Shown here: positions 5,576 through 64,000 of the stretch, piece by piece
Numbering within the stretch: position 1 is the first letter of the stretch
Layout of the letters: the number at the start of each line of letters is the position of its first letter
From: Croceivirga lutea
GTDB lineage: Bacteria > Bacteroidota > Bacteroidia > Flavobacteriales > Flavobacteriaceae
Length of the DNA: 64,000 bases
Reading direction: 5' to 3'
NCBI RefSeq assembly: GCF_014235875.1
Contig: NZ_JACJUK010000009.1
Coordinates: 62,001-126,000, forward strand
Translations under genes and position numbers: made by a program
The notes under the pieces: model-generated
The model's input: only the letters and a program-made list of their open reading frames with translations
What the model was told of the DNA's origin: nothing
Databases searched by the model: none

Positions 5576-5591
5576 TTGTAGTAAATCTTTA

Positions 5592-6203: not shown

Positions 6204-6207
6204 CAAA

Positions 6208-44426: not shown

Positions 44427-47400
44427 ATGCATAAAAAACCAAGTCGAAAATTAGAATTGAAAAATTCCTCAATTACTCCCCAATTGATTTTTAGAACATT
44501 GGTTTTTCCCCTAAATAAAATTCGTATGAAAGTTGCTACGTTCAACACGCTAAAAGCTTATAGTTTTATACTTCTCTTATTTTTTAGTTGTTTTAAAACA
44601 TTAGGTAATTCCCATTTCTCAAAAACGGTAATAGGTAATGAGCACGACCCTACTATTGTTGAGAAACTGGTAAAACCTACAACAGATAAAAATACATTTG
44701 TAGGTGATGTTCAATTTAGTTCGCCCAATTATACTATTGACGAAGATGGAGGTAGTTTAACTGTAGAGGTAACCTATGTAGGTCCTGACCAAGCCGCATT
44801 TACTATTGATTATGCAACCTTAGATAATACGGCAATAGCAGGTACAGACTATACAGCAACCTCTGGTACACTTTCGTTTTCTGGTACAGCAGAAACCCTT
44901 TCTTTTAGTGTTCCAATTTTAGACAATACCTTTTTAAATGCAGAGAAAGAATTTCAAATAGACCTTAGTAATATTTCAGAACCAACTATTACTGTTAGCC
45001 AGTCTACTACAGTAGCAATTATAAATGATAACGAGCTAACACCAACTACAGGTTTATCAGTTTCTGACTTTTCAGTTGATGAGAGTACAGCAACAGCATT
45101 ATTTACTATAAGTTACAGCGGTGCAACTGTAGAAGATGCTTTTACAGTTGATTATGTTATTGCAGATGGTACAGCGACTTCTGGTACAGATTATACAGCT
45201 ACACTAACAGGTCAACTTTCTTTTTTGGCAAATACAATAGATGGCGATTTTCAAACTGTTTCAGTAAACCTAATAGATGACTTGGATATTGAGGGAGATG
45301 AAACACTCACCTTAACCATTTCTAATACCAATCCAAATTATATTCCTATAGTAACTGCAATAGGAACGGGAACAATTTCAGATAACGACAGCAATGCTGG
45401 AACAGGGATCGCTGTTGATAATATCACGGTTAATGAAGCTGATGGCACTTTTGATTTTTCTATTTATTATACAGGTAATGATGTTCAAGATGCCTTTACG
45501 GTAGATTATGTAATTACTGATGGCTCTGCAACTTCGGGTACAGATTATACCGCTACCCTATCTGGGCAAATTACGTTCCCAGCGGGTACTGCTGATACAG
45601 ATACGCAAACAGTCACTATTACACTAATAGATGATACTGATATTGAAAGTGATGAAATCTTAACCATAGATTTATCCAACATTTCACATTCGGCGCTCAA
45701 TATTTTAGATGCCAATGCAATCGCCACCATTACGGATAATGACCCCACAGTAACCGATGAAATTAGTGTTGCTGATTTTTCTATAGACGAAGCTGCTGGT
45801 ACAGCTTCTTTTGTGGTTACCTACACAGGTACTAATGGGCAAGCTGCTTTTACTTTAGATTACACCATTACAGATGGTTCTGCCATTTCTGGCTCTGATT
45901 ACTCAGCTACCTTAACTGGTCAAGTAAGTTTCCCTACCGGAACTAACAGCGGTGACCAACAAGCTGTTGTAGTTACTTTAACTGACGATGCCCTTATCGA
46001 AGGTGATGAAGATTTAACATTTACACTAGCTAATAGTTCAAACCCAGCAATTACCATAGTAGATGCAAGTGCTACAGGTACCATTACTGATAATGATACT
46101 ACCCCTGGTACGGGAGTTTCCGTGGCTGATTTCTCAGTTGATGAAGCAGCAGGTACTGTTGACTTTGTAGTTACCTACACTGGTAATGATGTTCAAGATG
46201 CCTTTACCGTTGATTATCTTATTTCTGATATTTCTACAACTTCGGGTACAGATTATACCGCTACCCTATCTGGGCAAATTACGTTCCCAGCGGGTACTGC
46301 TGATACAGATACGCAAACAGTCACTATTACACTAATAGATGATACTGATATTGAAAGTGATGAAATCTTAACCATAGATTTATCCAACATTTCACATTCG
46401 GCGCTCAATATTTTAGATGCCAATGCAATCGCCACCATTACGGATAATGACCCCACAGTAACCGATGAAATTAGTGTTGCTGATTTTTCTATAGACGAAG
46501 CTGCTGGTACAGCTTCTTTTGTGGTTACCTACACAGGTACTAACGGGCAAGCTGCTTTTACCTTAGATTATACCATTACTGATGGTTCTGCCATTTCTGG
46601 CTCTGATTACTCAGCTACCTTAACTGGTCAAGTAAGTTTCCCTACCGGAACTAACAGCGGTGACCAGCAAGCTGTTGTAGTTACTTTAACTGACGATGCC
46701 CTAATTGAAGGTGATGAAGATTTAACACTTACACTAGCTAATAGTTCAAACCCAGCAATTACCATAGTAGATGCAAATGCTACGGGTACCATTACTGATA
46801 ATGATACTACCCCTGGCACGGGAGTTTCCGTGGCTGATTTTTCAGTTGATGAAGCAGCAGGTACTGTTGACTTTGTAGTTACCTACACTGGTAACGATGT
46901 GCAAGATGCCTTTACCGTTGATTATCTTATTTCTGATATTTCTACAACTTCGGGTACAGATTATACCGCTACCCTATCTGGGCAAATTACATTCCCAGCA
47001 GGTACTGCTGATACAGATACACAAACTGTAACTATTACTATAACAGATGATACCGATGTAGAAGGTGACGAATCTTTAGACTTTACACTTTCTAATATTT
47101 CCAATACATTACTAAACATTCTTGATGCTTCGGCTACGGGTACTATTACAGATAATGACCCTGCTATTGCTGATGAAATTAGTGTTGCTGATTTTTCTAT
47201 AGACGAAGCTGCTGGTACAGCTTCTTTTGTGGTTACCTACACAGGTACTAACGGGCAAGCTGCTTTTACCTTAGATTATACCATTACCGATGGTTCTGCC
47301 ATTTCTGGCTCTGATTACTCAGCTACCTTAACTGGTCAAGTGAGTTTCCCTACCGGAACTAACAGCGGTGACCAACAAGCTGTTGTAGTTACTTTAACTG

Positions 47401-50400
47401 ACGATGCCCTTATCGAAGGTGATGAAGATTTAACACTTACACTAGCTAATAGTTCAAACCCAGCAATTACCATAGTAGATGCAAATGCTACGGGTACCAT
47501 TACTGATAATGATACTACCCCTGGCACGGGAGTTTCCGTGGCTGATTTTTCAGTTGATGAAGCAGCAGGTACTGTTGACTTTGTAGTTACCTACACTGGT
47601 AACGATGTGCAAGATGCCTTTACCGTTGATTATCTTATTTCTGATATTTCTACAACTTCGGGTACAGATTATACCGCTACCCTATCTGGGCAAATTACAT
47701 TCCCAGCAGGTACTGCTGATACAGATACACAAACTGTAACTATTACTATAACAGATGATGCAGATGTAGAAGGTGACGAATCTTTAGACTTTACACTTTC
47801 TAATATTTCCAATACATTACTAAACATTATTGATGCTTCGGCTACGGGTACTATTACAGATAATGACCCTGCTATTGCTGATGAAATTAGTGTTGCTGAT
47901 TTTTCTATAGACGAAGCTGCTGGTACAGCTTCTTTTGTGGTTACCTATACTGGTACTAACGGGCAAGCTGCTTTTACTTTAGATTATACCATTACTGACG
48001 GTTCTGCCATTTCTGGCTCTGATTACTCAGCTACCTTAACTGGTCAAGTAAGTTTCCCTACCGGAACTAACAGCGGTGACCAGCAAGCTGTTGTAGTTAC
48101 TTTAACTGACGATGCCCTTATCGAAGGTGATGAAGATTTAACACTTACACTAGCTAATAGTTCTAACCCAGCAATTACCATAGTAGATGCAAGTGCTACA
48201 GGTACCATTACTGATAATGATACTACCCCTGGCACGGGAGTTTCCGTGGCTGATTTCTCAGTTGATGAAGCAGCAGGTACTGTTGACTTTGTAGTTACCT
48301 ACACTGGTAATGATGTTCAAGATGCCTTTACCGTTGATTATCTTATTTCTGATATTTCTACAACTTCGGGTACAGATTATACCGCTACCCTATCTGGGCA
48401 AATTACCTTCCCAGCAGGTACTGCTGATACAGATACACAAACTGTAACTATTACTATAACAGATGATACCGATGTAGAAGGTGACGAATCTTTAGACTTT
48501 ACACTTTCTAATATTTCCAATACATTACTAAACATTATTGATGCTTCGGCTACAGGTACTATTACAGATAATGATGTGGCTACGAGCGGTAGCGTTTCAG
48601 TTGCAGATTTTAGCGTTAATGAAAATTCAGGAACAGTTGATTTCGTAGTAACCTATACTGGAATCACCGTTGCAACCCCATTTACATTTGATTATGTTAT
48701 AGCAGATGGTACTGCTAATTCTGGTTCAGATTACGCCGTAACCTTAACAGGTCAAATATCATTTCCAGCAGGCACTAATGATGGTGACCAACAAGTTGTT
48801 ACCGTTACTTTAGTAGATGATGCTGTCGTGGAAACTGATGAAACTTTTGACATCACCATTTCTAATAGTTCAACAGCTTTAGTAACCATTGCTGACGGTA
48901 CGGGTACAGGAACCATTTTAAATGACGACGTAAGCGGTACTGTTGAATTTTTCAACACCAATGTTACATTTACCGAAGGTACAGACCCTGATGCTATAGT
49001 AACCATAAGTTATAATGGAACTATTGGTCCAGGACAATTTGTAGATTTTGACATTAATTCTGTTGAAGGAACAGCCACAGAAGGTATTGATTATGGTGGA
49101 GGTTCGCTTTCGCATCGTTTTGATGATTCTAATTTTGGCACACCTATCAGCATTATTATCCCCTTAGCAGATGACACTACAATTGAAAGTGATGAAGATT
49201 TTCAAATTGAATTATCAAACTTAACAACAAACATTCCAGGAGGGGTTGCATTTGCAAACGGTCAACCTACTTATAGTGCAACTGTTACTATAAACGACAA
49301 TGATTCTAGTACAGTTGAAATAATTAATGGGCCCGTAATTGTAACTGAAGGTACCGACACTTTTGCTAGATTCACCGTAGTTTACAATGGAACTCTAACT
49401 GGATTGAATTTTGTAAGATTTGATTGGTCCACACTTGACGGCACTGCAGAAGATGGCACCGATTATGTTGGAGACTCTGGGTTTCTATTATATGGTGCAA
49501 TCGGAGGTTATACAAGAACTATTGATATTGATATTACTGATGATGCGGTAATTGAATCTGCTGAAGAGTTTCAATTAATATTAACCAATTTAACCTCAAG
49601 TGTTGGTGCTCAATTTGATAATGGCCAACCTTCTTACCCTGCAACCGCAACGCTAAATGATAATGATAGCGGTCCTTCAAACGGAGTATCAGTTGCTGAT
49701 TTTACGGTAGATGAAGATGCAGGCACTGCTAATTTTGTTGTTACTTATAATGGTAATGAAGTACAAGATGCATTTACTGTTGATTATACTATAACAGATG
49801 TCAGCACAGTTTCTGGTACTGATTACACAGCTACATTAACTGGACAAGTTGCTTTCCCAGCGGGTACTGAAGATGGTGACGAACAAAATATTGTGGTTAC
49901 CATTACAGATGATACCTTTTTAGAAGAAGTTGAAACCTTAGAAGTTACCTTATCTAATTTATCAACTACGCTAATAAATATTTTAGATGCTGATGCCACA
50001 GGTACAATTAATGATAATGACTCAACCCCGACCACTGGCTTATCAGTATTAGATTTTACGGTAAATGAAAATGCGGTATCAACCGTATTTAATGTGGTTT
50101 ATAATGGAGCTACCACGCAAAACAGCTTCACTGTTGACTATGTAATTACTGATGGTTCTGCCAATATAGGTTCAGACTATAATACTGTAGCTAGTGGAAC
50201 TTTATCATTTCCTGCAAGTACTGATGATGGCGATGCTCAGAGTATTAGTGTTTCTATGATTGATGACACCTTAATTGAAGGTAATGAAGATTTAACTTTT
50301 ACGCTTTCCAATATTTCCACCAGTATTATAAATCTTGTTGATGCTGATGGCTTAGGTACTATCATTGATAATGAAATTGCGAATGCTTCAACTGGAGTTT

Positions 50401-53400
50401 CTATTGCTGATTTCACTGTAGATGAGGCTATAGGTACTGTTGATTTTGTGGTTTCTTACAACGGAGCTACGGTGCAAGATGCCTTTACCGTTGACTATGC
50501 TATTACTGACGGTACAGCAAATTCAGGTAGCGATTATAATGCTACATTAACTGGCCAATTGGCTTTTCCTGCAGGAACTACTTCTGGTGACCAACAAACC
50601 GTTACCGTAACTATTATCGATGATACCGCCATTGAAGGAGACCAAGATTTAAATGGTACGCTTTCTAATTTATCTACAACCTTAATCAATATTGTTGATG
50701 CCAATGGTGTAGGTACTATTACTGATAATGATGTGGCTACGCCAACTACAGGTTTAACTGCCGCTGATTTTAGCGTAGATGAAAGCATTGGAACAACAAA
50801 CTTTGTAGTTACCTATAATGGCGCTACTATTGAACAAGCCTTTACGGTTGATTATACGATTACTGATGGTTCTGCCAATTCAGGTACTGATTACACAGCT
50901 ACATTAACTGGGCAATTAACTTTCCCTGCCGGTACTGCTGATGGTGACCAACAAAATATTGCGGTTACAATTTCAGAAGATACCGTTATCGAAGGGGATG
51001 AAACTATTGATTTTGTATTATCCGGATTGTCTACAACATTAATTAATCTTGTAGATGCCAATGCAACAGGTACTATTCAAGATAATGATGTCGCAACACC
51101 TACAACTGGGGTTTCGGCAGCAGACTTTACGGTAGATGAAGATGCAGGCACGGTAAACTTTGTGGTTACCTATAACGGAGCTACAATTCAAGATGGGTTT
51201 ACGGTTGACTATGCAATCACTGATGTTACCACAACCTCAGGAAGTGATTATACCGCTACCCTTACAGGGCAGCTTAGCTTCCCGGCAGGTACTACTGATG
51301 GTGACCAACAAAATGTGAGTTTGGCAATTATTGATGATAACTTATTAGAAGAAAATGAAACTGTAGACTTTACGCTTTCAAATCTGTCTACAACCCTAAT
51401 CAATATAGTGGATGCTGACGCATCAGGAACAATAAATGACAACGATTCGTCACCAACGACTGGACTATCAGTATTAGATTTTACGGTAAATGAAAATGCA
51501 TTAAATACTAACTTCACTGTAGTGTATAGTGGAGCAACAACACAGAATAGTTTTACCGTAGACTATGTAATTACCGATGGTTCTGCTAGTATAGGTTCAG
51601 ACTATAATACTGTAGCTAGTGGAACTTTAACTTTCGCAGCAAACACAACTAATGGGAACTCTAGAAATGTTGCAGTTTCATTATTAGATGACACTCTTTT
51701 AGAAGGAAACGAAGATTTAACTATAACCCTTTCAAACGTTTCAACAGCAAACATAAATTTAGTTGATGCTGATGGCTTAGGTACTATCATTGATAATGAA
51801 ATTGCAAATGCTTCAACTGGTGTCTCTATTGCTGATTTCACTGTAGATGAAGCTATAGGTACTGTTGATTTTGTGGTTTCTTACAACGGAGCTACGGTGC
51901 AAGATGCCTTTACCGTTGACTATGCTATTACTGACGGTACAGCAAATTCAGGTAGCGATTATAATGCAACATTATCAGGCCAATTGGCTTTTCCTGCAGG
52001 AACTACCTCTGGTGACCAACAAACCATTACCGTAACTATTATCGATGATACCGCCATTGAAGGAGACCAAGATTTAAATGGTACGCTTTCTAATTTATCT
52101 ACCACCTTAATCAATATTGTTGATGCCAATGGTGTAGGTACTATTACTGATAATGATGTGGCTACGCCAACTACTGGTTTAACTGCCGCTGATTTTAGCG
52201 TAGATGAAAGCATTGGAACAACAAACTTTGTAGTTACCTATAACGGCGCTACTATTGAACAGGCCTTTACGGTTGATTATACGATTACTGATGGTTCTGC
52301 CAATTCGGGTACTGATTACACAGCTACATTAACTGGGCAATTAACTTTCCCTGCCGGTACTGCTGATGGTGACCAACAAAATGTTGCGGTTACAATTTCA
52401 GAAGATACCGTTATCGAAGGGGATGAAACTATTGATTTTCTATTATCCGGATTGTCTACAACATTAATTAATCTTGTAGATGCCAATGCAACAGGTACTA
52501 TTCAAGATAATGATGTGGCAACACCTACAACTGGGGTTTCGGCAGCAGACTTTACGGTAGATGAAGATGCAGGCACGGTAAACTTTGTGGTTACCTATAA
52601 CGGAGCTACAATTCAAAATGGGTTTACGGTTGACTATGCAATCACTGATGTTACCACAACCTCAGGAAGTGATTATACCGCTACCCTTACTGGGCAACTT
52701 AGTTTCCCGGCAGGTACTGCTGATGGTGACCAACAAAATGTGAGTTTGGCTATTGCAGATGATAACATTTTAGAAGGAACTGAAACCGTAGACTTTACGC
52801 TTTCAAACCTGTCAACTACAGTTATAAATATCGTAGATGGAAATGCAGTCGGAACTATAAACGATAACGAAGCTACAGCAGGCACAGGAGTATCTGCAGC
52901 AGATTTTACGGTTAATGAGAACGGTTTAACTGCTCAATTTGAACTTTTTTACAGCGGAGCAACAGTACAAGATGCTTTTACGGTAGATTACACTATAACT
53001 AATGGCTCTGCAGTTTCTGGAACCGATTTTAATGCAACCCTTACAGGTACAGTAACTTTCCCAGCTGGAACCACAAATGGTGACTCTAGAACTGTAACTG
53101 TAACAATAATTGATGATGCTAGAATTGAGGGTAACGAAGATTTATCAATTACTTTTTCGAATTCTTCATTAGCTGTTGTGCCCATTTTAGATGCAGATGG
53201 CTTGGGTACCATTATAGATAATGACGTAGCTACTCCTACCACAGGTCTAACTGTTTCAGATTTTAGCGTAAGTGAATCAATAGGTACGGTAAACTTTGTG
53301 GTAAGATATAATGGAGCTACGGTGCAAAATGCCTTTACCGTTGACTATGCTATTACTGACGGTACAGCAAATTCAGGTAGTGATTATACCGCAACTCTGG

Positions 53401-56400
53401 CTGGTCAATTATCGTTCCCTGCAAACACAACTAATGGTACTCAACGTACAGTAACGCTAACAATTAGTGACGACACCGTAATTGAAGGAACTGAAAACCT
53501 TAATTTTCAATTAAGTAATCTTTCCAATTCTTTAATCAATTTGGTAGATCCAAATGCTGTAGGAACTATTACTGATAATGATATTAAAACACCAACTACT
53601 GGTATCTCTGTAGCAGATTTTACAGTAGACGAGGCTGTTGGTACAACAAATTTTGTAGTTACCTATAACGGTGCTGATGTTGAAGATGAATTTACGGTTA
53701 ACTACAGTATTACAGATGGTTCCGCAAATTCTGGTTCAGATTATTCTGCAACTTTGGCAGGTCAAATAACATTCCCAGCGGGTACAACAAATGGAGACCT
53801 ACAAAATGTTGCGGTTACTATTACTGATGATGCCTTCATTGAAGGAGATGAAGATTTAGACATTACACTTTCAGGATTATCTACTACTTTAATCAATCTT
53901 GTAGATGGCAATGCAACGGGTACTATTCAAGATAATGATTTAATTACTCCAACCACAGGTTTAACTGTTGCTGACTTTAGTGCAAATGAAAGTGTTGGAA
54001 CAGTAGATTTTGTAGTAACCTACAACGGAGCTAGCATTCAAAATTCATTCACTGTTGACTATAGCATTTTTAATGGTACAGCCGCTTCAGGTAGTGACTA
54101 TACCGCCACACTTTCAGGGCAATTAACTTTCCCAGCGGGTACTGTAGATGGTGACCAACAAACGGTAACAGTTACCATTTTAAACGATGGTACCATTGAA
54201 GGTGATGAAGATTTTCGTTTAGAATTAGCTAACCTTTCTAATCCATCACTAAACTTAGTTGATTCAGAAGGTGTTGGAACAATATTAGATGATGATATTG
54301 CAAATGCTTCAACTGGTATATCTGTACTAGATTTTTCAGTTAATGAAAGTGCTGGTACCATTAACATGGTAGTTACTTATAGCGGAGCAACGGTGCAAAA
54401 TTCATTTACAGTAGATTATGTAATTGCAGATGATTCTGCTATACATGGTGTAGATTACAATACAGTTCAATCAGGGCAATTAGTTTTCCCAAATAATACT
54501 TCTAATGGTAATCAACAGTTGGTATCTGTTGCCATTCTTGAGGATACTTTAATCGAAGGCAATGAAAATGTGACCATCACACTTTCTAATCTTTCAACCA
54601 CATTAGTTAACCTCATTGATGCTAATGGTATTGGAACTATTAATGATAATGACACAGCTTTACCTTCCACTGGTTTATCAGTATCTGATTTTACCGTTAA
54701 TGAAAATGTGGCAACAGCTGACTTTATTGTTACGTATAACGGAGCAACGGTACAAGATGAATTTACTGTTGATTATGCTATTACAGACGGTTCAGCAAAT
54801 TCAGGTATTGATTATAATGGTACACTTTCTGGCACCTTAACCTTTGCTGCAGGTACCACAGATGGTACGCAACAAAATATTTCAGTTTCCATTACTAACG
54901 ATGCTTTAATTGAAGGTGATGAAGATGTAGACTTTACCCTTTCAAACTTATCTACAACTTTATTAAATCTTGTGGATGCAACAGGAGTTGGAACAATCAT
55001 AGATGACGATACAGCAACACCAACAACAGGTATTTCTGTGGCTGATTTCACAGTTGATGAAAGCGTTGGTAGCACCCAATTTGTAGTTACCTACAATGGA
55101 GCAACCTTACAAGATGGATTTACAGTAGATTACGAAATCACAGATATTTCAACAACTTCTGGTAATGATTACAGCGCAACCTTAACTGGTCAATTAACTT
55201 TCCCAGCGGGTACTGCAGATGGTGACCAACAAACAATTCCTGTAACAATTAATGAAGACACATTTATAGAACAAAATGAGAGCCTAAACATTCAGCTTTC
55301 TAATTTATCATCATTGTTGATAAACACTGTTGATGGGCAAGCTTTAGGTACTATTAATGATAATGATAATAATGCAACTACAGGTATTGATTTTACTAGC
55401 TTGGCGGTATCTTCTAATGAAGGTGACCCAGGAGACACAGTTAATGCAATTTTCACCATAACATTTAATGGTGATGTAGACGCTGGCGAAAATATAGAAG
55501 TTGATTATTTAGTGAATAACGGTACTGCATTTAACTCTACTGATTTTACTGCAAGTCCTACAGTTACAACCTTAGTTTTCAACAATGTTGTAAAAACACA
55601 TAATGTTATTATTCCTATTATAAACGATAATGTAATTGAGCTTACAGAGAGCTACAATTTTGACCTTGTAGCCATACGTTCTAATGTTGGTATTCAATTA
55701 TTAAATAATAGAGCGGTAGGTACAATTAATGATGACGATGGTGGTGGTTTATCTATTGCTGGTTTTAATGTTGTAGAGCAAAGCACTGTTAGAAACTTCG
55801 AAATTACCTATAACGGTGATACAACACCTGGTGGTTTCACTATTGATTATGTTGTAACAGATGGTACAGCAGCTTCAGGTGATGATTATACTGTTGCTGT
55901 TGCATCTGGTACCCTAACATTTACGGGTAATAATGGTGAAGTTAGGTCTGTACCAATTACTATTCTTGAAGATTCATTTATAGAATTTGATGAAACTTTA
56001 GAAATAACTATATCTAATCCTAGTAATCCTCAAGTAGGTATTTCTAGCAATACAGCAACCGGTATTATTGGCAACAATGACAGTGGTTCTATTGCAATTA
56101 CAGGATTTACTGTTGATGAAATTTTTACTACTGAAAACTTTGAATTCACCTATACTGGAGACCCGGTACAAGGTGGTTTTGCAGTGAATTATCAAATTGT
56201 AGATGTTACCACTTCTACTGGAAATGATTATACCGTTTCTTCACAAACAGGCACGTTAAATTTCACTGGCACAGATGGGCAAGTGATACAGGTTCCTGTA
56301 GATATATTACAAGATGCCATTATTGAAGGTAATGAAAACCTTCGTATAGAAATCACTGGAATTACCCCAAGCTTTATTGGCATTACAAATGCCTCTGCAG

Positions 56401-59400
56401 TAGGAACCATACTCGATATTGACCACCAGCCAACTGCAGAAGATGACTCTTTTGTGGTATTCCGTGACCAATCAAACAAGGTATTAGATGTATTACCAAA
56501 TGACGATTATGGTTTTGATGGACCAGCAGCTGTAAACGCATTGCAAATTGTAAGTCCTCCATCAAATGGTACACTTACTGTTAATAATAATGGTACACCA
56601 GGTAATCCTTTAGATGATTATTTTGATTACCAACCTAACCCTTCATTTAATGGTTATGATTCTTTTATTTATCAAATAGTAGATTCAAACGGTTCAACAG
56701 TATCCGCTACGGCATACTTGTATATTAATGATACTAACCTTAAAAAGGATTTTGAAATTCGTTTTCAGGGGAACGTGCATGGTGACTTTACCATGATTGC
56801 AAACAACGTTTTATCTAGAAATGCTACGGCAGATTATAACGGTGGTGCTGGTAACCACAATTTTAATGACAACGTATTTGTTGATATTGATTCTGACCCA
56901 ACAACATTTAACTCAACAAGAGCAAATTTAGCTAACCCAGAACCAACCTTAAGCTGTCTTAATATTGAAAGAGCCTATATCTATTGGGCTGCTGCTGATA
57001 AACCTTATGGTGTAGATGGGTTTGGTTTAACTACTGGTACAGGAAATACAGCTGATGAACCAACGTGGAATTTTAATGAAATTAAATTAATGTTACCTGG
57101 TCAGTCGAGCTATACAACAATTGCAGCTGACGAAGTGCTTTATAGAGGAAGAGATGAAGGTTTCCAAAATGACCCATATGTCTGTGTTAAAGATATAACT
57201 GCCGAAGTTAATGCTTTGGCTACTCCATTCGGGAACTATCAAGTAGGTAATATTAAGGCTACAGAACTAGATTTGTACTCCTATTCTGGTAGTCATACAG
57301 GTACCTCTGGTGGATGGCAAATAGTATTTGTTTATGAAAACATTTCTCTAGACCCTAAAAACATTACACTTTACGATGGTTACGTTCACACATACGCTTC
57401 TAATGGTGAAGGTGAAACAGAATTTAACTTTAGTGGATTCCAAACTATTCCCGCTGGTAATGTAAATACCGGAATGATTATAGGTTCCTTAGAGGGTGAC
57501 CAAGATTTAGGTGGAGACCAATTATTGATTAATGATACAAGTAGTAATTGGACCAACATCTCTACACCAATGAGAGCTGCCAATAACTTCTTTAACAGCC
57601 GTATTACTATTGACGGACTTGATTATACCGATAGGTCACCTGCAAGTACCAACACACTTGGTTACGACGCGGCTAAATTCCAACTAAATAACTCAGGAAA
57701 TTCTTTAATTGGAAATGACCAAACTTTTGCCCGATTTAAAATTACAACAGACCAAGAATCTTATGGTTTATACTTAATGGGTATGAGTGTTGATGTGTAC
57801 CAACCAAGTTTAGGTGCGCTAAGTTTAACAGCTAACGCCACCGGCCCATTTAACGCTGGTGACATTGTTCCTTTAAGTTTAGATGTTACTAACTCTGGTA
57901 ATGATGACATTATCAACTTAAGTATAAGCACAGTAATCCCTGATGAAGCTGAATTTGTGGGAGTTGGTACACTACCTGCGGGAGTTACACACAATTATGA
58001 TAGTGCTACAAGAACGTTAGAATTCACATCTCAAGATGGTATTACCAATATGGGTGATAGTTACCAGTTAGATTTTGACATTCAATTAAAAGACCAGTGC
58101 TATTTCTTAGAAACGGCATGTTCTGCGAGTTTTGAAGTTCAAGCTACTGCCTCATTTAGTGGTACTACGAATACTGATATGATTGTATCTACCAGTTCTG
58201 GTACAACAGATGCTTGTGGTATTGGTGAATACGACCCAACAATTATTGATGTGCAGCAACCTGCTCAAGTTAATTGGGCTACTGTTGTTGGTAGTTTAGA
58301 CAGAACTATTTCTTGTGATAACATTACACAATACAATGCAGCACAAGCACTAGAGCCAGTACCTGCAATTTGTAGCTTTACTGTAGTAAAAGTTCCTGGT
58401 TCTTTTGTACAATCTGCTTCATGTCCGTCTGAAGGTACTTATACCAATGTTTGGACCTTTACTGATGCTTGTGGTAGAGTTAGTGATACGTATACACAAG
58501 TAATCACTGTTGAGGATAATGCAGCGCCAACATTTAATGAATCGTTACCAGCTGATAGTTTTGCTGCTTATGATAATGTACCTGCACCTCAAACATTAAC
58601 TGCTAATGACAACTGTGATACCAATGCAACAGTAAACTTTAGCGAGTCCTATATTGGAGATAATTCTGGTACAGATTATACTATTGTAAGAACTTGGTCT
58701 ACAACAGATTGTGCTGGTAATAACAGAATGCATACACAAAATATTTTCGTTACTGAAAATGGAGCTGCTATAGGTGTTGCTATTAATGATATTACGGTTA
58801 ATGAAATTGATGGTACTGCAACACTAGAAGTAACCAATACAGGTAATGTTACTGGCGGTTATACCGTAACATTTAGCACAGCAAATGGCTCTGCTCAACA
58901 ACCAGGTGATTATACTTCTGATTCAGGTACATTAACCTTTACAGGTAATCATAATGAAGTTCGTACCATTACTATTGCAATTGGTAATGATAACTTAATT
59001 GAACCTACTGAAGATTTTACCGTTAATATTGCCAATGGTACAAATACGCCAACAATAAATAAATCTGCAGGTGTTATTACCATTTTAGATAATGACAATG
59101 TAGTTGGTACTGGTGTTTCTTTCGATTCAAACAGTATAACAGTAACTGAAGGTACAGATACTTTTGCAAGATTTACGGTAACGTTCACAGGTAATATTGC
59201 CCCAGGAGAAAATGTAACTTTCGATTATAATACCTCTGATGGCTCTGCTGAAGAACCTGCAGATTACCTAGAAATAACAGGAACTGGAGTATTTACTTCA
59301 TCGACCAATACGGTATTCATAGATGTTCCAATTATAGATGATAATGTTATTGAACAAACAGAAAATTTAATTGTTCTGTTAACCAATGTACAATCTAATA

Positions 59401-62400
59401 TTGGTGTAGGTTTTGTAAATGGACAACCAGCGAATACGGCAACGGCTAATATTTTAGATAATGATAATCAACCAGGTGTTACCGGTTTATCATTCCAAGG
59501 TGACCCCGTAATTGTAAATGAAGCTGATGGTACCGCTACTGTTATAGTTGAGCTTACTGGTAACGTTCAGGGTGGTTTTTCAGTTGATTATAACTCCGCC
59601 AACAATAATGCTGAGGCAGGTTCTGATTACTCAGCAGTTACAGGCACTTTAAACTTTGCTGGTAACGATGGTGAGTCATACCCAATAACAATTCCGATTA
59701 TTGATGATAACGTAATTGAAGCAACAGAGGATTTATTTGTAAATCTTTCGAACTTATCAACCAGCTTAATAGCTATAAACGATAACCAGGCAGTTGTTCA
59801 AATTATAGATAATGATAACACTCCTGGAACAAATGGTATTTCTTTCCAGAATAATCCAATTACCGTAAATGAAGCAGACGGAACAGCGACTATTAATGTT
59901 TTACTTAATGGTAATGTTCAAGGCGGCTTCACATTAGACTACGTTACAAGAGATGATAGTGCTGATGCTGGTTCAGATTATAATACCGTTTCTGGCACAC
60001 TCACTTTTGCGGGTAATGATGGTGAAATACAACAGGTGGTAATCCCAATTTTAGATGATAATATAATTGAAGCCACAGAAAGATTCTACGTTGACCTTTC
60101 TAACCTTTCAACAAATCTTATTACTATCAATGATGCTAATGCGAGTGTTGATATTTTAGATAACGATTATATTCCTGGTGTTAATGGTATTTCTTTCCAA
60201 AATGATGCTATAACAGTAAATGAAGCAGCTGGCACAGCATCTATCAACGTAGTATTAAATGGTAATGTTCAAGGTGGTTTTGATATAGACTATGCTACAA
60301 ATGATAATACAGCAGAAGCTGGAACAGATTACACCACTGTTTCTGGAACACTTTCGTTCGCAGGAAACGACGGTGAGGTACAAACCATTACTGTACCAAT
60401 TATAGATGATAACGTAATTGAAGCAACAGAAAGATTATTTGTAAATCTATCTAATTTATCTACTACATTAATTACCATTAATGATAATCAAGCAACAGTT
60501 GATATTATTGATAACGATAATATACCAGGTACTACAGGTATCACCTTTGAGAATGATGCAATTGTAGTTGATGAAGCAGTTGGTATTGCCACAATCAATG
60601 TTTTATTAACAGGTAATGTTCAAGGAGGATTTGATGTAGATTACACCACAAATGACAATACCGCTATTTCTGGTGATGACTATACTACAAGTTCAGGCAG
60701 ACTAAGTTTTGCGGGTACAGATGGTGAAATTCAAACCATTAGTGTTCCGATTATAGATGATAATAATATCGAGCCTACAGAACAGTTATTTATTGATTTA
60801 TTTAATTTATCAACTCCATTAATTACGATTAATGATGCTCAAGGCACTGTTGATATAACAGATAATGATAATATTCCTGGTACAACTGGTATTTCTTTCC
60901 AAAATGATGCAGTTTCAGTAAGTGAAGATGACGGTACTGCTACTATAGATGTATTGTTAACAGGTAACGTTCCAGGTGGTTTCACTATAGATTTTACCAC
61001 AAATAATAATACAGCTATTGCTGGTTTAGATTATACCACCACAAATGGCACGTTAACTTTTGCTGGTACCGATGGTGAAATTCAATCTATCACTGTTCCA
61101 ATAACCGATGATAATATTATTGAAGCTACAGAGCAGCTATTAGTAGACCTTTCCAATTTAAGTACTTCATTAATTGCAATTAATGATTCGCAAGGTACTA
61201 TTGACATTCTAGACAATGATGCTATTGCAGGCACAGGTATTGCTTTTGATAATGCTAATGTTACGGTAAACGAAGCTGACGGTACAATGACATTTGATGT
61301 TCGTTTAACAGGAAATGTTCAAGGTGGATTTACAGTAAATTACACAACAGCTGATGGTTCGGCAGTTGAACCATCAGATTATACAGAAACTTCTGGAACC
61401 TTAACTTTTGCGGGTACAGATGGTGAGGTTCATAGTATTACTGTTCCAATCAATGATGATAACGTAATTGAAGCTACAGAAAATCTAACCGTTACCCTTT
61501 CAGGTTTATCAACTACTTTAATAGGAGTTAACGGTCCGTCAAACGCTAATGGAAACATTATTGACAACGATGCAAACCCAGGAGTTACAGGTATAAGTTT
61601 TGATAATAGCAACGTAACTGTGAACGAAGCTGATGGCACTATGACCTTCGATGTGGTGCTAAACGGTAATGTTCAAGGTGGATTTTCTGTAGATTATGCG
61701 ACAGCTGATGGCAGTGCAAATCAACCAAATGATTATACCCAAACCTCTGGAACCTTAACGTTTGTTGGTAACAATGGTGAGGTACATACCATTACTGTGC
61801 CTATAATCGATGATACACTTATTGAACCTACAGAAGACTTAACAGTTTCGCTTTCAAATCTATCAACAACCTTAATAGGTGTTAACGGCCCAACAACTGC
61901 CACTGGTAATATTTTAGATAATGATGCTATTGCAGGTACCGGTATTGCCTTTGATAACGATAATGTTACCGTTAACGAAGCTGATGGCACCATGACATTT
62001 GATGTTGTTTTAACAGGTAATGTTCAAGGTGGATTTAGTGTAGATTTTGCCACAGCTGACGGTACTGCAAATGAACCTAGTGATTATACAGAAACTATAG
62101 GCACATTAACCTTTACAGGAACAGATGGTGAAGTACAAACAATTACGACACCTATCATTGATGATACATTAATTGAACCTACAGAAGACTTAACGGTTTC
62201 ACTTTCTGGTTTATCTACTACCTTAATTGGAATTAATGGCCCAACTACGGCTACTGGTAATATTTTAGATAATGATGCTGTTGCAGGAACCGGTATTAGC
62301 TTTGATAATACCAATGTAACCGTTAATGAAGCCGATGGTACTATGAACTTTGATGTAGTACTTACCGGAAATGTTCAAGGTGGATTTACCGTTGATTATG

Positions 62401-64000
62401 CCACAACAGATGGCACAGCTAATGAACCAGGTGACTACACAGAAACTATTGGCACCTTAACTTTTGTGGGTACTGATGGTGAAGTGCAAACTATATCAAT
62501 TCCAATTTTGGATGATGATATTATTGAACCTACTGAAGACTTAATAGTTTCACTTTCTGGTTTATCTACTACTTTAATTGGAATTAACGGTCCTTCATCT
62601 GCAACTGGTAATATTCTTGACAACGATAACACACCTGGTGTTACCGGTATAAGTTTCGATAGTGATAACGTAACGGTGAATGAAGCTGACGGCACCATAA
62701 CCTTTAATGTAACCTTAACAGGCAATGTTCAGGGCGGCTTTAGTGTTGATTATGCTTCTGCAGATGGTAGTGCAAATCAACCTTCTGATTATACTGCAAC
62801 AATAGGTACGTTGAACTTCATTGGAACTAACGGAGAAACATATCCAATTACCATTCCTATTGTAGATGATGATATTATTGAAGCAACAGAAAACTTCACT
62901 GTATCCTTATCAGGTTTAACTACCACCTTAATCGGTATTAATGGTCCTTCAACTGCAACCGGAAATATCATAGATAATGATGCTACACCTGGAGTAACAG
63001 GTATACGTTTCGACAGTGACAATGTAACTGTAAACGAAGCTGATGGCACCATGACATTTGATGTTACCTTAACTGGTAACGTTCAAGGCGGATTTACCGT
63101 TGATTATGCAACAACAGATGGTACAGCTAATGAACCATTCGATTATACGGATACTACAGGTACACTAACCTTTGTAGGTACAGATGGCGAATCTCATAGT
63201 ATTACTGTTCCTGTAGTCGATGATGATTTAATTGAACCTACAGAAGATTTAACAGTGGCACTTTCTGGTCTTAGCACCACCTTGATAACTATAAATGGCC
63301 CTTCAACAGCCACAGGTAATATTATAGATAATGATGCTACGCCAGGTGTAACAGGTATTAGTTTTGACAATACAAATGTCACCGTAAACGAAGCCGATGG
63401 TACCATGAATTTTGACGTAGTTCTAAACGGTAATGTACAAGGTGGATTTGCCGTTGATTATGCTACAACCAATGGCAGCGCGGCTGAACCAGGTGATTAC
63501 ACAGAAACTATTGGCACATTAAACTTTGTAGGTACTAATGGTGAGGTTCAGACAATCTCTGTTCCAATTGTAGATGATGATTTAATTGAACCTACAGAAG
63601 ACTTAACAGTAGCACTTTCTGGTCTTAGCACCACATTAATTACCATAAATGGGCCTACAACAGCCACAGGTAATATTATAGATAATGATGCTACGCCAGG
63701 TGTAACAGGTATTCGTTTTGATAGTGATAATGTAACCGTTAACGAGTCTGATGGAACCTTAAACTTTGATGTTGTGCTAACAGGTAATGTTCAAGGTGGC
63801 TTCAGTGTAGACTTTGCAACAACTGATGGATCAGCTTTAGAACCATTTGATTATCAAGAAACTATTGGTACATTAAACTTTGTAGGAGTTGATGGTGAAG
63901 TGCAAACCATTTCAATTCCGATTTTGGATGATGATTTAATAGAACCTACTGAAGATTTAACAGTATCATTATCTGGCTTATCAACTACTTTAATAACAAT
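44427..64000 (+). CDS. Giant secreted Calx-beta repeat surface protein (3' truncated by window edge)
   Basis: A single reading frame runs from 44427 to the window edge, at least 6,524 residues, with no in-frame stop seen. The ATG at 44427 gives a 33-residue extension before a second ATG at 44526, which begins a good signal peptide (hydrophobic SFILLLFFSCF); either may be used. The protein has about 33 Calx-beta-like repeats (roughly 118 residues each, ending in (T)ITDND), then a non-repetitive island (about residues 3995-4783), then at least 15 more repeats. Calx-beta domains bind Ca2+ at acidic edges, and DND/DDN motifs recur here. The likely role is a surface adhesin or gliding-type protein exported by the type IX system; the sorting domain would be beyond the window. 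Confidence 0.93.
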   Translation, partial: MHKKPSRKLELKNSSITPQLIFRTLVFPLNKIRMKVATFNTLKAYSFILLLFFSCFKTLGNSHFSKTVIGNEHDPTIVEKLVKPTTDKNTFVGDVQFSSPNYTIDEDGGSLTVEVTYVGPDQAAFTIDYATLDNTAIAGTDYTATSGTLSFSGTAETLSFSVPILDNTFLNAEKEFQIDLSNISEPTITVSQSTTVAIINDNELTPTTGLSVSDFSVDESTATALFTISYSGATVEDAFTVDYVIADGTATSGTDYTATLTGQLSFLANTIDGDFQTVSVNLIDDLDIEGDETLTLTISNTNPNYIPIVTAIGTGTISDNDSNAGTGIAVDNITVNEADGTFDFSIYYTGNDVQDAFTVDYVITDGSATSGTDYTATLSGQITFPAGTADTDTQTVTITLIDDTDIESDEILTIDLSNISHSALNILDANAIATITDNDPTVTDEISVADFSIDEAAGTASFVVTYTGTNGQAAFTLDYTITDGSAISGSDYSATLTGQVSFPTGTNSGDQQAVVVTLTDDALIEGDEDLTFTLANSSNPAITIVDASATGTITDNDTTPGTGVSVADFSVDEAAGTVDFVVTYTGNDVQDAFTVDYLISDISTTSGTDYTATLSGQITFPAGTADTDTQTVTITLIDDTDIESDEILTIDLSNISHSALNILDANAIATITDNDPTVTDEISVADFSIDEAAGTASFVVTYTGTNGQAAFTLDYTITDGSAISGSDYSATLTGQVSFPTGTNSGDQQAVVVTLTDDALIEGDEDLTLTLANSSNPAITIVDANATGTITDNDTTPGTGVSVADFSVDEAAGTVDFVVTYTGNDVQDAFTVDYLISDISTTSGTDYTATLSGQITFPAGTADTDTQTVTITITDDTDVEGDESLDFTLSNISNTLLNILDASATGTITDNDPAIADEISVADFSIDEAAGTASFVVTYTGTNGQAAFTLDYTITDGSAISGSDYSATLTGQVSFPTGTNSGDQQAVVVTLTDDALIEGDEDLTLTLANSSNPAITIVDANATGTITDNDTTPGTGVSVADFSVDEAAGTVDFVVTYTGNDVQDAFTVDYLISDISTTSGTDYTATLSGQITFPAGTADTDTQTVTITITDDADVEGDESLDFTLSNISNTLLNIIDASATGTITDNDPAIADEISVADFSIDEAAGTASFVVTYTGTNGQAAFTLDYTITDGSAISGSDYSATLTGQVSFPTGTNSGDQQAVVVTLTDDALIEGDEDLTLTLANSSNPAITIVDASATGTITDNDTTPGTGVSVADFSVDEAAGTVDFVVTYTGNDVQDAFTVDYLISDISTTSGTDYTATLSGQITFPAGTADTDTQTVTITITDDTDVEGDESLDFTLSNISNTLLNIIDASATGTITDNDVATSGSVSVADFSVNENSGTVDFVVTYTGITVATPFTFDYVIADGTANSGSDYAVTLTGQISFPAGTNDGDQQVVTVTLVDDAVVETDETFDITISNSSTALVTIADGTGTGTILNDDVSGTVEFFNTNVTFTEGTDPDAIVTISYNGTIGPGQFVDFDINSVEGTATEGIDYGGGSLSHRFDDSNFGTPISIIIPLADDTTIESDEDFQIELSNLTTNIPGGVAFANGQPTYSATVTINDNDSSTVEIINGPVIVTEGTDTFARFTVVYNGTLTGLNFVRFDWSTLDGTAEDGTDYVGDSGFLLYGAIGGYTRTIDIDITDDAVIESAEEFQLILTNLTSSVGAQFDNGQPSYPATATLNDNDSGPSNGVSVADFTVDEDAGTANFVVTYNGNEVQDAFTVDYTITDVSTVSGTDYTATLTGQVAFPAGTEDGDEQNIVVTITDDTFLEEVETLEVTLSNLSTTLINILDADATGTINDNDSTPTTGLSVLDFTVNENAVSTVFNVVYNGATTQNSFTVDYVITDGSANIGSDYNTVASGTLSFPASTDDGDAQSISVSMIDDTLIEGNEDLTFTLSNISTSIINLVDADGLGTIIDNEIANASTGVSIADFTVDEAIGTVDFVVSYNGATVQDAFTVDYAITDGTANSGSDYNATLTGQLAFPAGTTSGDQQTVTVTIIDDTAIEGDQDLNGTLSNLSTTLINIVDANGVGTITDNDVATPTTGLTAADFSVDESIGTTNFVVTYNGATIEQAFTVDYTITDGSANSGTDYTATLTGQLTFPAGTADGDQQNIAVTISEDTVIEGDETIDFVLSGLSTTLINLVDANATGTIQDNDVATPTTGVSAADFTVDEDAGTVNFVVTYNGATIQDGFTVDYAITDVTTTSGSDYTATLTGQLSFPAGTTDGDQQNVSLAIIDDNLLEENETVDFTLSNLSTTLINIVDADASGTINDNDSSPTTGLSVLDFTVNENALNTNFTVVYSGATTQNSFTVDYVITDGSASIGSDYNTVASGTLTFAANTTNGNSRNVAVSLLDDTLLEGNEDLTITLSNVSTANINLVDADGLGTIIDNEIANASTGVSIADFTVDEAIGTVDFVVSYNGATVQDAFTVDYAITDGTANSGSDYNATLSGQLAFPAGTTSGDQQTITVTIIDDTAIEGDQDLNGTLSNLSTTLINIVDANGVGTITDNDVATPTTGLTAADFSVDESIGTTNFVVTYNGATIEQAFTVDYTITDGSANSGTDYTATLTGQLTFPAGTADGDQQNVAVTISEDTVIEGDETIDFLLSGLSTTLINLVDANATGTIQDNDVATPTTGVSAADFTVDEDAGTVNFVVTYNGATIQNGFTVDYAITDVTTTSGSDYTATLTGQLSFPAGTADGDQQNVSLAIADDNILEGTETVDFTLSNLSTTVINIVDGNAVGTINDNEATAGTGVSAADFTVNENGLTAQFELFYSGATVQDAFTVDYTITNGSAVSGTDFNATLTGTVTFPAGTTNGDSRTVTVTIIDDARIEGNEDLSITFSNSSLAVVPILDADGLGTIIDNDVATPTTGLTVSDFSVSESIGTVNFVVRYNGATVQNAFTVDYAITDGTANSGSDYTATLAGQLSFPANTTNGTQRTVTLTISDDTVIEGTENLNFQLSNLSNSLINLVDPNAVGTITDNDIKTPTTGISVADFTVDEAVGTTNFVVTYNGADVEDEFTVNYSITDGSANSGSDYSATLAGQITFPAGTTNGDLQNVAVTITDDAFIEGDEDLDITLSGLSTTLINLVDGNATGTIQDNDLITPTTGLTVADFSANESVGTVDFVVTYNGASIQNSFTVDYSIFNGTAASGSDYTATLSGQLTFPAGTVDGDQQTVTVTILNDGTIEGDEDFRLELANLSNPSLNLVDSEGVGTILDDDIANASTGISVLDFSVNESAGTINMVVTYSGATVQNSFTVDYVIADDSAIHGVDYNTVQSGQLVFPNNTSNGNQQLVSVAILEDTLIEGNENVTITLSNLSTTLVNLIDANGIGTINDNDTALPSTGLSVSDFTVNENVATADFIVTYNGATVQDEFTVDYAITDGSANSGIDYNGTLSGTLTFAAGTTDGTQQNISVSITNDALIEGDEDVDFTLSNLSTTLLNLVDATGVGTIIDDDTATPTTGISVADFTVDESVGSTQFVVTYNGATLQDGFTVDYEITDISTTSGNDYSATLTGQLTFPAGTADGDQQTIPVTINEDTFIEQNESLNIQLSNLSSLLINTVDGQALGTINDNDNNATTGIDFTSLAVSSNEGDPGDTVNAIFTITFNGDVDAGENIEVDYLVNNGTAFNSTDFTASPTVTTLVFNNVVKTHNVIIPIINDNVIELTESYNFDLVAIRSNVGIQLLNNRAVGTINDDDGGGLSIAGFNVVEQSTVRNFEITYNGDTTPGGFTIDYVVTDGTAASGDDYTVAVASGTLTFTGNNGEVRSVPITILEDSFIEFDETLEITISNPSNPQVGISSNTATGIIGNNDSGSIAITGFTVDEIFTTENFEFTYTGDPVQGGFAVNYQIVDVTTSTGNDYTVSSQTGTLNFTGTDGQVIQVPVDILQDAIIEGNENLRIEITGITPSFIGITNASAVGTILDIDHQPTAEDDSFVVFRDQSNKVLDVLPNDDYGFDGPAAVNALQIVSPPSNGTLTVNNNGTPGNPLDDYFDYQPNPSFNGYDSFIYQIVDSNGSTVSATAYLYINDTNLKKDFEIRFQGNVHGDFTMIANNVLSRNATADYNGGAGNHNFNDNVFVDIDSDPTTFNSTRANLANPEPTLSCLNIERAYIYWAAADKPYGVDGFGLTTGTGNTADEPTWNFNEIKLMLPGQSSYTTIAADEVLYRGRDEGFQNDPYVCVKDITAEVNALATPFGNYQVGNIKATELDLYSYSGSHTGTSGGWQIVFVYENISLDPKNITLYDGYVHTYASNGEGETEFNFSGFQTIPAGNVNTGMIIGSLEGDQDLGGDQLLINDTSSNWTNISTPMRAANNFFNSRITIDGLDYTDRSPASTNTLGYDAAKFQLNNSGNSLIGNDQTFARFKITTDQESYGLYLMGMSVDVYQPSLGALSLTANATGPFNAGDIVPLSLDVTNSGNDDIINLSISTVIPDEAEFVGVGTLPAGVTHNYDSATRTLEFTSQDGITNMGDSYQLDFDIQLKDQCYFLETACSASFEVQATASFSGTTNTDMIVSTSSGTTDACGIGEYDPTIIDVQQPAQVNWATVVGSLDRTISCDNITQYNAAQALEPVPAICSFTVVKVPGSFVQSASCPSEGTYTNVWTFTDACGRVSDTYTQVITVEDNAAPTFNESLPADSFAAYDNVPAPQTLTANDNCDTNATVNFSESYIGDNSGTDYTIVRTWSTTDCAGNNRMHTQNIFVTENGAAIGVAINDITVNEIDGTATLEVTNTGNVTGGYTVTFSTANGSAQQPGDYTSDSGTLTFTGNHNEVRTITIAIGNDNLIEPTEDFTVNIANGTNTPTINKSAGVITILDNDNVVGTGVSFDSNSITVTEGTDTFARFTVTFTGNIAPGENVTFDYNTSDGSAEEPADYLEITGTGVFTSSTNTVFIDVPIIDDNVIEQTENLIVLLTNVQSNIGVGFVNGQPANTATANILDNDNQPGVTGLSFQGDPVIVNEADGTATVIVELTGNVQGGFSVDYNSANNNAEAGSDYSAVTGTLNFAGNDGESYPITIPIIDDNVIEATEDLFVNLSNLSTSLIAINDNQAVVQIIDNDNTPGTNGISFQNNPITVNEADGTATINVLLNGNVQGGFTLDYVTRDDSADAGSDYNTVSGTLTFAGNDGEIQQVVIPILDDNIIEATERFYVDLSNLSTNLITINDANASVDILDNDYIPGVNGISFQNDAITVNEAAGTASINVVLNGNVQGGFDIDYATNDNTAEAGTDYTTVSGTLSFAGNDGEVQTITVPIIDDNVIEATERLFVNLSNLSTTLITINDNQATVDIIDNDNIPGTTGITFENDAIVVDEAVGIATINVLLTGNVQGGFDVDYTTNDNTAISGDDYTTSSGRLSFAGTDGEIQTISVPIIDDNNIEPTEQLFIDLFNLSTPLITINDAQGTVDITDNDNIPGTTGISFQNDAVSVSEDDGTATIDVLLTGNVPGGFTIDFTTNNNTAIAGLDYTTTNGTLTFAGTDGEIQSITVPITDDNIIEATEQLLVDLSNLSTSLIAINDSQGTIDILDNDAIAGTGIAFDNANVTVNEADGTMTFDVRLTGNVQGGFTVNYTTADGSAVEPSDYTETSGTLTFAGTDGEVHSITVPINDDNVIEATENLTVTLSGLSTTLIGVNGPSNANGNIIDNDANPGVTGISFDNSNVTVNEADGTMTFDVVLNGNVQGGFSVDYATADGSANQPNDYTQTSGTLTFVGNNGEVHTITVPIIDDTLIEPTEDLTVSLSNLSTTLIGVNGPTTATGNILDNDAIAGTGIAFDNDNVTVNEADGTMTFDVVLTGNVQGGFSVDFATADGTANEPSDYTETIGTLTFTGTDGEVQTITTPIIDDTLIEPTEDLTVSLSGLSTTLIGINGPTTATGNILDNDAVAGTGISFDNTNVTVNEADGTMNFDVVLTGNVQGGFTVDYATTDGTANEPGDYTETIGTLTFVGTDGEVQTISIPILDDDIIEPTEDLIVSLSGLSTTLIGINGPSSATGNILDNDNTPGVTGISFDSDNVTVNEADGTITFNVTLTGNVQGGFSVDYASADGSANQPSDYTATIGTLNFIGTNGETYPITIPIVDDDIIEATENFTVSLSGLTTTLIGINGPSTATGNIIDNDATPGVTGIRFDSDNVTVNEADGTMTFDVTLTGNVQGGFTVDYATTDGTANEPFDYTDTTGTLTFVGTDGESHSITVPVVDDDLIEPTEDLTVALSGLSTTLITINGPSTATGNIIDNDATPGVTGISFDNTNVTVNEADGTMNFDVVLNGNVQGGFAVDYATTNGSAAEPGDYTETIGTLNFVGTNGEVQTISVPIVDDDLIEPTEDLTVALSGLSTTLITINGPTTATGNIIDNDATPGVTGIRFDSDNVTVNESDGTLNFDVVLTGNVQGGFSVDFATTDGSALEPFDYQETIGTLNFVGVDGEVQTISIPILDDDLIEPTEDLTVSLSGLSTTLIT
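45406..48582 (+). repeat. 708-bp higher-order tandem repeat (A-B domain pair, four and a half copies)
   Basis: Two Calx-beta types alternate: A (GTGVSVADFSVDEAAGTVDF) and B (DEISVADFSIDEAAGTASF). A starts near 45406, 46108, 46816, 47524 and 48232; B starts near 45757, 46465, 47173 and 47881. The unit is 708 bases (236 codons), so gain or loss keeps the frame. 45531-45835 is identical to 46239-46543 over 305 bases. The first half of the first A is diverged. Confidence 0.9.
50030..52879 (+). repeat. 1,425-bp tandem duplication of a four-domain block (two copies)
   Basis: Copy 1 covers about 50030-51454 and copy 2 about 51455-52879, offset 1,425 bases (475 codons, in frame). Matching domain starts are SVLDFTVNENA, SIADFTVDEAIG, TAADFSVDESIG and SAADFTVDEDAG. 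The last three domains are nearly identical between copies with scattered single-base changes; the first domain has diverged more. Confidence 0.88.
56413..58775 (+). other. Non-repetitive island of the giant protein (cadherin-like, unassigned, DUF11-like and HYR-like modules)
   Basis: This region encodes about residues 3996-4783. In order: a cadherin/Big-like module (about 4000-4102, with DVLPNDDYG and PNPSFNGYDSFIYQ); a 350-residue globular part I cannot assign (about 4110-4460, with CLNIERAYIYWAAAD, GGWQIVFVYEN and several isolated Cys); a DUF11-like module (about 4465-4590, with LDVTNSGND); and two HYR-like modules (about 4617-4780, with ISCDN, CPSEGTY, FTDACGRVSDTY and TTDCAGN). Cys occur almost only in this island. 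Confidence 0.7.
58776..64000 (+). repeat. Calx-beta array 2, at least 15 tandem units, cut by the window edge
   Basis: Units of about 117-118 codons have a different consensus from array 1: GVTGISFDNxNVTVNEADGT, then GNVQGGFxVDYAT, SDYTETxGTLTFxGTDGEVQ, ITVPIIDDxxIEPTEDL, LSGLSTTLI, and GNIxDND. Starts are about 58780, 59107, 59470, 59827, 60178, 60529, 60880, 61231, 61580, 61930, 62284, 62635, 62990, 63345 and 63700. Units from 61231 on are the most alike. Spacings are 351 or 354 bases. Confidence 0.92.

Follow-up and report, generated by a model that had tools for sequence, protein, structure and literature searches.

Extent of the giant reading frame

The question raised by this locus is what a reading frame still open at the edge of the analysed DNA encodes, and whether its product would be a moving adhesin or a fixed one. 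The window, a stretch of 64,000 nucleotides from Croceivirga lutea, corresponds to C19:62001-126000; the genome measures 3.45 Mb, is spread over 19 contigs and is rated 99.95% complete. The frame occupies 44427..64000 on the + strand, and the ORF reading of the window gave 6,524 codons without a stop between 44427 and 63998. This agrees with the initial annotation, which described a single gene of more than 19.5 kb for over 6,524 residues, open at the window edge. Our extension by 828 bases (276 codons) past the window to the end of C19 at 126828 gave 6,800 codons, again without a stop. Since the other five frames contain 233 to 959 stops over this stretch, the long open frame is not due to chance. 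A gene for the Clp protease ClpP lies upstream on the opposite strand (43596..44144, −), outside the adhesin, and serves as a syntenic marker of the locus.

The end of C19 falls within a Calx-beta unit. Contig C15 starts within a unit of the same type, on the same strand and with the frame open, and continues for 764 codons to a stop at C15:2297. This 3′ part contains Calx-beta units, an Asp-rich stretch and a T9SS type-B sorting domain, and is followed by PorP/SprF and PorE-like genes. Over 223 bases, the end of C19 and the start of C15 are 97.8% identical, and no exact overlap of the two was found at 11 to 1,000 bases, as expected where an assembly breaks off within near-identical tandem repeats. 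Without an overlap the protein would have at least 7,564 residues, and about 7,490 if the 223-base match is one stretch; the latter is only a minimum because an assembly gap among near-identical repeats interrupts the gene. The two contigs were joined by synteny and homology, not by reads.

Judged by gene order and homology in two relatives, both contig ends are one locus. In Allomuricauda spongiicola (L021), a single contig bears clpP, a head gene, SprF and PorE in a row, and after them the orthologs of the three genes that come next on C15. The identities are 88% for clpP (to window 43596-44144), 72% for PorP/SprF, 62% for the PorE-like gene, and 49, 71 and 57% for the next three genes. Among named species, Croceivirga thetidis has the head closest to ours; beside its clpP stands a complete ortholog (L009) of 6,711 codons. 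The head of this ortholog is 79% identical to that of the window gene, and most of the C15 piece is 72-74% identical to it. Distinctive units also come in the same order: window units 31-35 best match units 12-16 of C. thetidis, and unit X3 on C15 matches its last unit.

The C. thetidis ortholog carries 1,362 residues ahead of its first Calx-beta unit (L009:665-4750), with weak Ig matches only, against about 90 in the window gene; the outermost tip therefore differs between the species. On another C. thetidis contig (contig 5, L025; 5,327 bases), a type-B giant ends and, 181 bases later, a second head gene begins, which shows that giants can stand in tandem in this genus. The end of the first of them is 49% identical to the C15 piece over 257 residues.

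Domain plan and Calx-beta repeats

As read from its C-terminus, the predicted protein is built of a sorting domain, an arm of at least 19 units, an HYR domain, a head of about 360 residues with an Ig-like domain, 33 further units and a free N-terminus. A signal peptide had been annotated, and the N-terminus is indeed hydrophobic and signal-like by eye. A more typical signal peptide results from the in-frame ATG at 44526 (MKVATFNTLKAYSFILLLFFSC...) than from the one at 44427 that opens the longest ORF; we take the former as the probable start, which places the signal peptide at 44526..44612 (+). Arm 1 (44697..56423, +; residues 91-3999) consists of 33 Calx-beta units with a period of about 118 residues, among them recent tandem copies of up to 99% DNA identity. 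Between arm 1 and the head Pfam places a Big_9/cadherin-like Ig domain (56424..56714, +). The head core of about 357 residues (56724..57794, +) is conserved in relatives and predicted to be all-beta. Behind it come a DUF11-type Ig-like domain resembling pilin, integrin and CLIPPER domains (57795..58250, +) and, by Pfam, an HYR_4C domain (58566..58739, +). The window part of arm 2 (58758..63998, +) holds units 34 to 48 of the repeat model, of which unit 48 is truncated. The remaining 828 bases of C19 carry units 49 and 50, and C15 has two further full units. In the Pfam search, all six pieces gave Calx-beta, with one Big_9 and HYR_4C besides and CHU_C at the C-terminal end. A stretch rich in Asp, noticed by eye on C15, gave only a sub-threshold HYR_4C match.

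PF03160 fitted the six pieces with E-values down to 9.6e-229. A model made from the gene's own repeats found 50 units on C19 (33 at residues 91-3999 and 17 at 4778-6775) and one partial plus two full units on C15, a total of at least 52 if the contig ends overlap and 53 if they do not. Of these, 48 fall in the window (the last one cut), in agreement with the "about 48" of the initial annotation, whose other numbers also proved correct wherever they were compared. We read the locus as one gene predicted to encode a surface fibre of more than 7,400 residues, with more than 50 Calx-beta units around a conserved head.

Several units are nearly identical in DNA. Units 4, 6, 8 and 10 share 95.5-97.2% identity, units 7, 9 and 11 share 97.7-99.2%, and units 17, 18 and 19 reappear as 21, 22 and 23 at 97, 98 and 90%. 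Unit 50, X1 and X2, which flank the gap, are about 97% identical, and most remaining units are less than 80% alike. The near-identical units look like recent tandem duplications, and array length is thus likely to vary between strains.

The acidic columns of the repeat, which we take from work on NCX to be calcium ligands, are strongly conserved: among the 52 units longer than 100 residues, columns E, D, D, E and E are kept in 52, 52, 51, 51 and 49, and the columns D-N-D in 50, 46 and 47. The repeat aligns with NCX calcium domains (PDB 3us9, 8sgi), these columns included, so that the array has both the tandem PF03160 domains and their acidic calcium-site columns. The likeness to NCX concerns the repeat family and the acidic columns; NCX has two such domains in an animal exchanger, whereas at least 52 are present in this bacterial surface protein.

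Sorting domain, barrel and PorE-like neighbour

Reading downstream for a stop and a type IX sorting domain, as the initial annotation had proposed, led to the stop on C15 preceded by a type-B C-terminal domain (CTD), with matches to CHU_C (PF13585, E 3.8e-23) and TIGR04131 (41.3 bits, cut-off 35). The PorP/SprF gene lies 225 bases downstream of the stop (TIGR03519, 237 bits, cut-off 90.55). It is followed by the PorE-like gene at C15:3373-5415, which scored 314.9 bits against T9SS_PorE (below the cut-off of 600) and 389.8 bits against the CHU_0125_OmpA model (below the cut-off of 620). The SprA translocon was found in the genome (TIGR04189, 2,874 bits). With its CTD, its adjoining PorP/SprF gene and a genomic SprA, the protein is classed as a giant type-B substrate of the T9SS whose export is predicted. 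Throughout, PorE-like genes were called by similarity to the PorE of this locus or to a profile of 23 such proteins.

It has been reported that mobile SprB rides on an SprF whose C-terminal Cys-X-Cys is bonded to GldK (PMC12635249). Fjoh_3952, in an operon with a PorE homolog, is static, while the named mobile substrates are without one (PMC12618676, PMC9143113), and PorE has been proposed to tie such sets to the wall (PMC9143113); this static/mobile rule is based on few tested proteins of one species. The SprF of our locus ends in FKSKIYRSPRYF, without Cys-X-Cys, and the PorE-like gene lies directly downstream. Given this neighbour and a barrel without the tail of the gliding carriers, the best reading of the sequence is that the protein is probably a static, wall-anchored adhesin and not a gliding one.

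Of the 14 PorP/SprF genes in the genome, six (that of the window gene included) precede a PorE-like gene, and none of these six has Cys-X-Cys. Two others have Cys-X-Cys and no PorE, and the other six have neither, one of them (C2) ending in KSPRFF. Barrels of head genes were seen complete in 26 of the 80 named loci: 14 with PorE, nine with Cys-X-Cys and no PorE seen (in four of these nine only 250-560 bases downstream are visible), and three with neither. Head genes therefore occur in both classes. Barrels of the same tail class as ours and with no adjoining PorE-like gene were found in three relatives (L041, L052 and L056), as in barrel C2 of this genome.

Barrel tails across Flavobacteriaceae

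We compared barrel tails in 12 closed Flavobacteriaceae genomes (L170-L242). The search gave 75 barrel matches, 74 of them over the cut-off; 71 were kept after two duplicates had been taken out and one barrel (L239, no PorE, no motif) had not been recovered by the profile. PorE is next to 31 of the 71, of which 30 end in [ST]PR[FYW][FYW] and the last in NPRFF. The same ending was found in only 1 of the 40 barrels without PorE next to them, half of which (20/40) carry Cys-X-Cys. Among 107 barrels of 280-400 residues, 58 have both PorE and the motif and five the motif without PorE; the others without PorE comprise 32 with Cys-X-Cys and 12 with other tails.

A quick tree built without the tails (SH-aLRT support only, with long-branch warnings) grouped seven Cys-X-Cys barrels without PorE (99) inside a group of 40 (96) whose other members are PR[FY]F-tailed, which suggests an independent switch. 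In tree-based independent pairs, on average 3.5 of 5 went the same way, none against, and 1.5 showed no difference (p 0.125-0.25); in so small a test, shared descent may account for the tail pattern. A strict tail code of general validity was rejected because it failed outside Flavobacteriaceae, where seven of eight PorE-adjacent barrels are without the motif; one of the eight ends in [STN]PR[FYW][FYW], as does one barrel without PorE. This test covered 38 barrels recovered from 47 stretches, part of the matches. In the same comparison inside the family, all five PorE-adjacent barrels have [STN]PR[FYW][FYW]. We therefore offer the tail motif as a hypothesis for Flavobacteriaceae. A literature search for the tail letters gave one Bacteroidota match, 'sprff', occurring once in the searched text of PMC5879114 and presumably a primer name, which does not by itself show that the motif is absent in print.

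The head domain

The head is the largest conserved non-repeat part of the protein outside the anchor, and the core of about 357 residues had no match in Pfam, NCBIfam or PDB sequences. An alignment-based model of 509 residues that includes the core was all-beta with high confidence, while the single-sequence fold of 805 residues had a mean pLDDT of 33.5. Searched against PDB and viral models, the 509-residue model found strong fold matches for its Ig-like residues 358-509 alone. The viral fold library yielded no convincing match (best-ranked TM-score 0.25/0.33), and the PHROGs search with the head yielded nothing at E 0.001. Neither outcome speaks for or against the phage or algal-surface contact that the initial annotation had thought possible.

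A head match was found in 127 of 199 genomes of the family, which makes it an unnamed domain of wide occurrence, present on SprB-type proteins as well. The heads of the window gene and of the SprB-type protein of the same genome are 37% identical (hhalign E 8.5e-74). The head follows the signal peptide directly in 70 of 80 related loci; in the window gene it is mid-filament. It is the likely ligand-binding module.

Comparison with SprB and other known systems

The sprB gene of F. johnsoniae reportedly belongs to the operon sprC-sprD-sprB-sprF. We found no sprC- or sprD-like genes before the window gene, which is instead preceded by clpP and photolyase-type genes. The initial annotation had suggested looking for both kinds of neighbour: the PorP/SprF gene was there, with a PorE-like gene behind it, but the sprC/sprD-like genes were not.

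A second locus in the genome does have the SprB-type order. At one end of C13 (G000 C13:475867-484557), a gene with a type-B CTD and a PorP-like gene are followed by a head gene that runs off the contig. One end of C12 (C12:579557-583104) has a type-B giant, of which only the 3′ part is present, and a PorP/SprF gene with the tail NCRCTY. Together the two pieces are probably this genome's gliding adhesin of the SprB type, interrupted by the contig ends; unbroken versions of this gene order were found in G032, G143, G175 and G164. G164 belongs to the genus of the window, and its head matches lie at almost the same positions as those of the C. radicis genome G238, in keeping with an origin of the window in Croceivirga or close kin. 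The SprB-type protein would thus be encoded at a locus separate from the window gene. The earlier reading as a giant flavobacterial surface protein holds for the T9SS CTD, the calcium-type repeats and the PorP/SprF neighbour, but not for kinship with SprB and gliding, given this separate operon and the PorE-linked class of our locus.

As an F. johnsoniae-type reference we used the one genome among 299 (single genus) with a published sprD primer (PMC9870892). Its operon has genes of 483, 1,588, 6,499 and 356 codons, with a Cys-X-Cys carrier; for comparison, SprB of F. johnsoniae has 6,497 residues (PMC9870892). Our own-gene models found neither a head nor a Calx-beta match in the sprB of 6,499 codons. 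The head was therefore rejected as a general part of SprB and would be optional on SprB-type proteins. SprB of F. johnsoniae and the window protein are alike as giant type-B T9SS substrates with their own SprF. They differ in that SprB has the sprC-sprD-sprB-sprF operon, an SprF with Cys-X-Cys, no adjoining PorE and no head or Calx-beta match. The C13/C12 adhesin has an N-terminal head, whereas F. johnsoniae SprB has none.

A precedent for proteins of this kind is already in print. The giant of Kordia antarctica IMCC3317, also from Flavobacteriaceae, has 16,944 residues, a signal peptide, more than 100 Calx-beta units in a long tandem array, and a TIGR04131 type-B C-terminus (PMC7477175). It is more than twice the minimum length of the window gene, and a head and a second arm do not appear in the excerpted description. 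The Fjoh_3952/Fjoh_3951/Fjoh_3950 operon (PMC12618676) and the P. gingivalis PG1035-PorP-PorE set (PMC9143113) resemble our locus in combining a type-B substrate, a PorP-like barrel and a PorE-like wall anchor, the former in one operon; both were compared by description only, and giant repeat arms and a head are not in the excerpts of those descriptions.

Proposed model and alternatives

We consider it likely that the window gene encodes a giant T9SS type-B adhesin that is exported by Sec and SprA, held by its own PorP/SprF, tied to peptidoglycan by PorE, and stiffened by calcium into a two-arm fibre, with a binding head in mid-filament and arms that vary by recombination. The domains, the gene order, the SprA gene, the conserved acidic sites and the repeat identity are the observed part of this explanation. 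The signal peptide would direct the protein to Sec, and the SprA translocon would carry it through the outer membrane. The type-B C-terminal domain would stay held by the PorP/SprF barrel, which the PorE-like neighbour would tie to peptidoglycan, giving static anchoring. Calcium bound in the Calx-beta sites may stiffen both arms, with 19 or more units between the cell and the head and 33 beyond it, so that the head would be presented mid-filament and could bind a ligand there. Recombination among near-identical repeats might lengthen or shorten the arms. From the cell outwards, the predicted order is type-B domain with barrel and PorE, Asp-rich and HYR-like region, arm 2, HYR, head with Ig-like domain, Big_9, arm 1 and free N-terminus. 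A Calx-beta-type unit is a few nanometres long, and on that scale the length of the fibre would come to roughly 200-250 nm. SprB is about 200 nm (PMC12635249).

A gliding adhesin that works like SprB and is driven along a track through SprF would belong to the same secretion class and be of similar size (6,497 residues for SprB, PMC9870892), and the SprB-type protein of this very genome carries a homologous head. We nevertheless regard it as unlikely, since the SprF tail FKSKIYRSPRYF has no Cys-X-Cys, a PorE-like gene comes next, clpP and photolyase-type genes take the place of sprC and sprD, and the SprB-type operon lies on C13/C12. That the ends of C19 and C15 are two neighbouring giants, the window protein having a separate C-terminus of its own, is very unlikely. 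The gap is unread, and the C. thetidis tandem sets a precedent in the genus, but the C15 end is much closer to the single C. thetidis ortholog (72-74%) than to the tandem giant (49%), and the unit types come in the same order. The units flanking the gap are about 97% identical in DNA, and the arm 2 counts agree: at least 19 here, 19 in C. thetidis and 16 in Maribacter L010.

The grappling hook protein GhpA of Aureispira is a T9SS substrate. In its C-terminal domain GhpA (PDB 9flp, 5,898 residues) is matched by the final 96 residues of our C15 piece with an E-value of 4.4e-9, which might point to a comparable predation or cell-contact fibre. Such a role seems highly improbable, as the part in common is a generic sorting domain, and GhpA was absent from the PDB sequence matches of arm 1, arm 2 and the head at the thresholds used, although this is no proof.

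For the wall-anchored two-arm fibre, we thus have a nearly complete domain plan of one giant type-B adhesin, and a rule from gene order and tail sequence that would predict whether such fibres are held at the wall or moved by the gliding machinery. The open question of what many flavobacterial type-B giants do becomes directly testable. The assignment to a wall-anchored class, as opposed to gliding, is based on gene order and tail sequence. Our literature searches found no description of a two-armed plan with an unnamed family-wide head in mid-filament and no paper on an SprB head domain, which does not itself show absence in print. We also put forward, tentatively and as rather less than probable, that the head, N-terminal in most related loci, was moved mid-filament by an added outer Calx-beta arm in the Croceivirga/Maribacter line, and that each PorP/SprF barrel of the Flavobacteriaceae is addressed by its C-tail, [ST]PR[FY]F directing it to the PorE wall anchor and Cys-X-Cys to the gliding track of GldK, which would let static and moving fibres use the same head.

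The head profile also gave partial matches in other giant ORFs. Three other genomes of the phylum (G211, G229 and G619) have very long ORFs, of 9,155 to 10,586 residues, that matched only its Ig-like part. In the window's own genome, at G000 C14:165409-182111, a cluster of three ORFs with type-B CTDs was found (4,139, 588 and 506 codons), the largest of which matches the Ig-like part of the profile.
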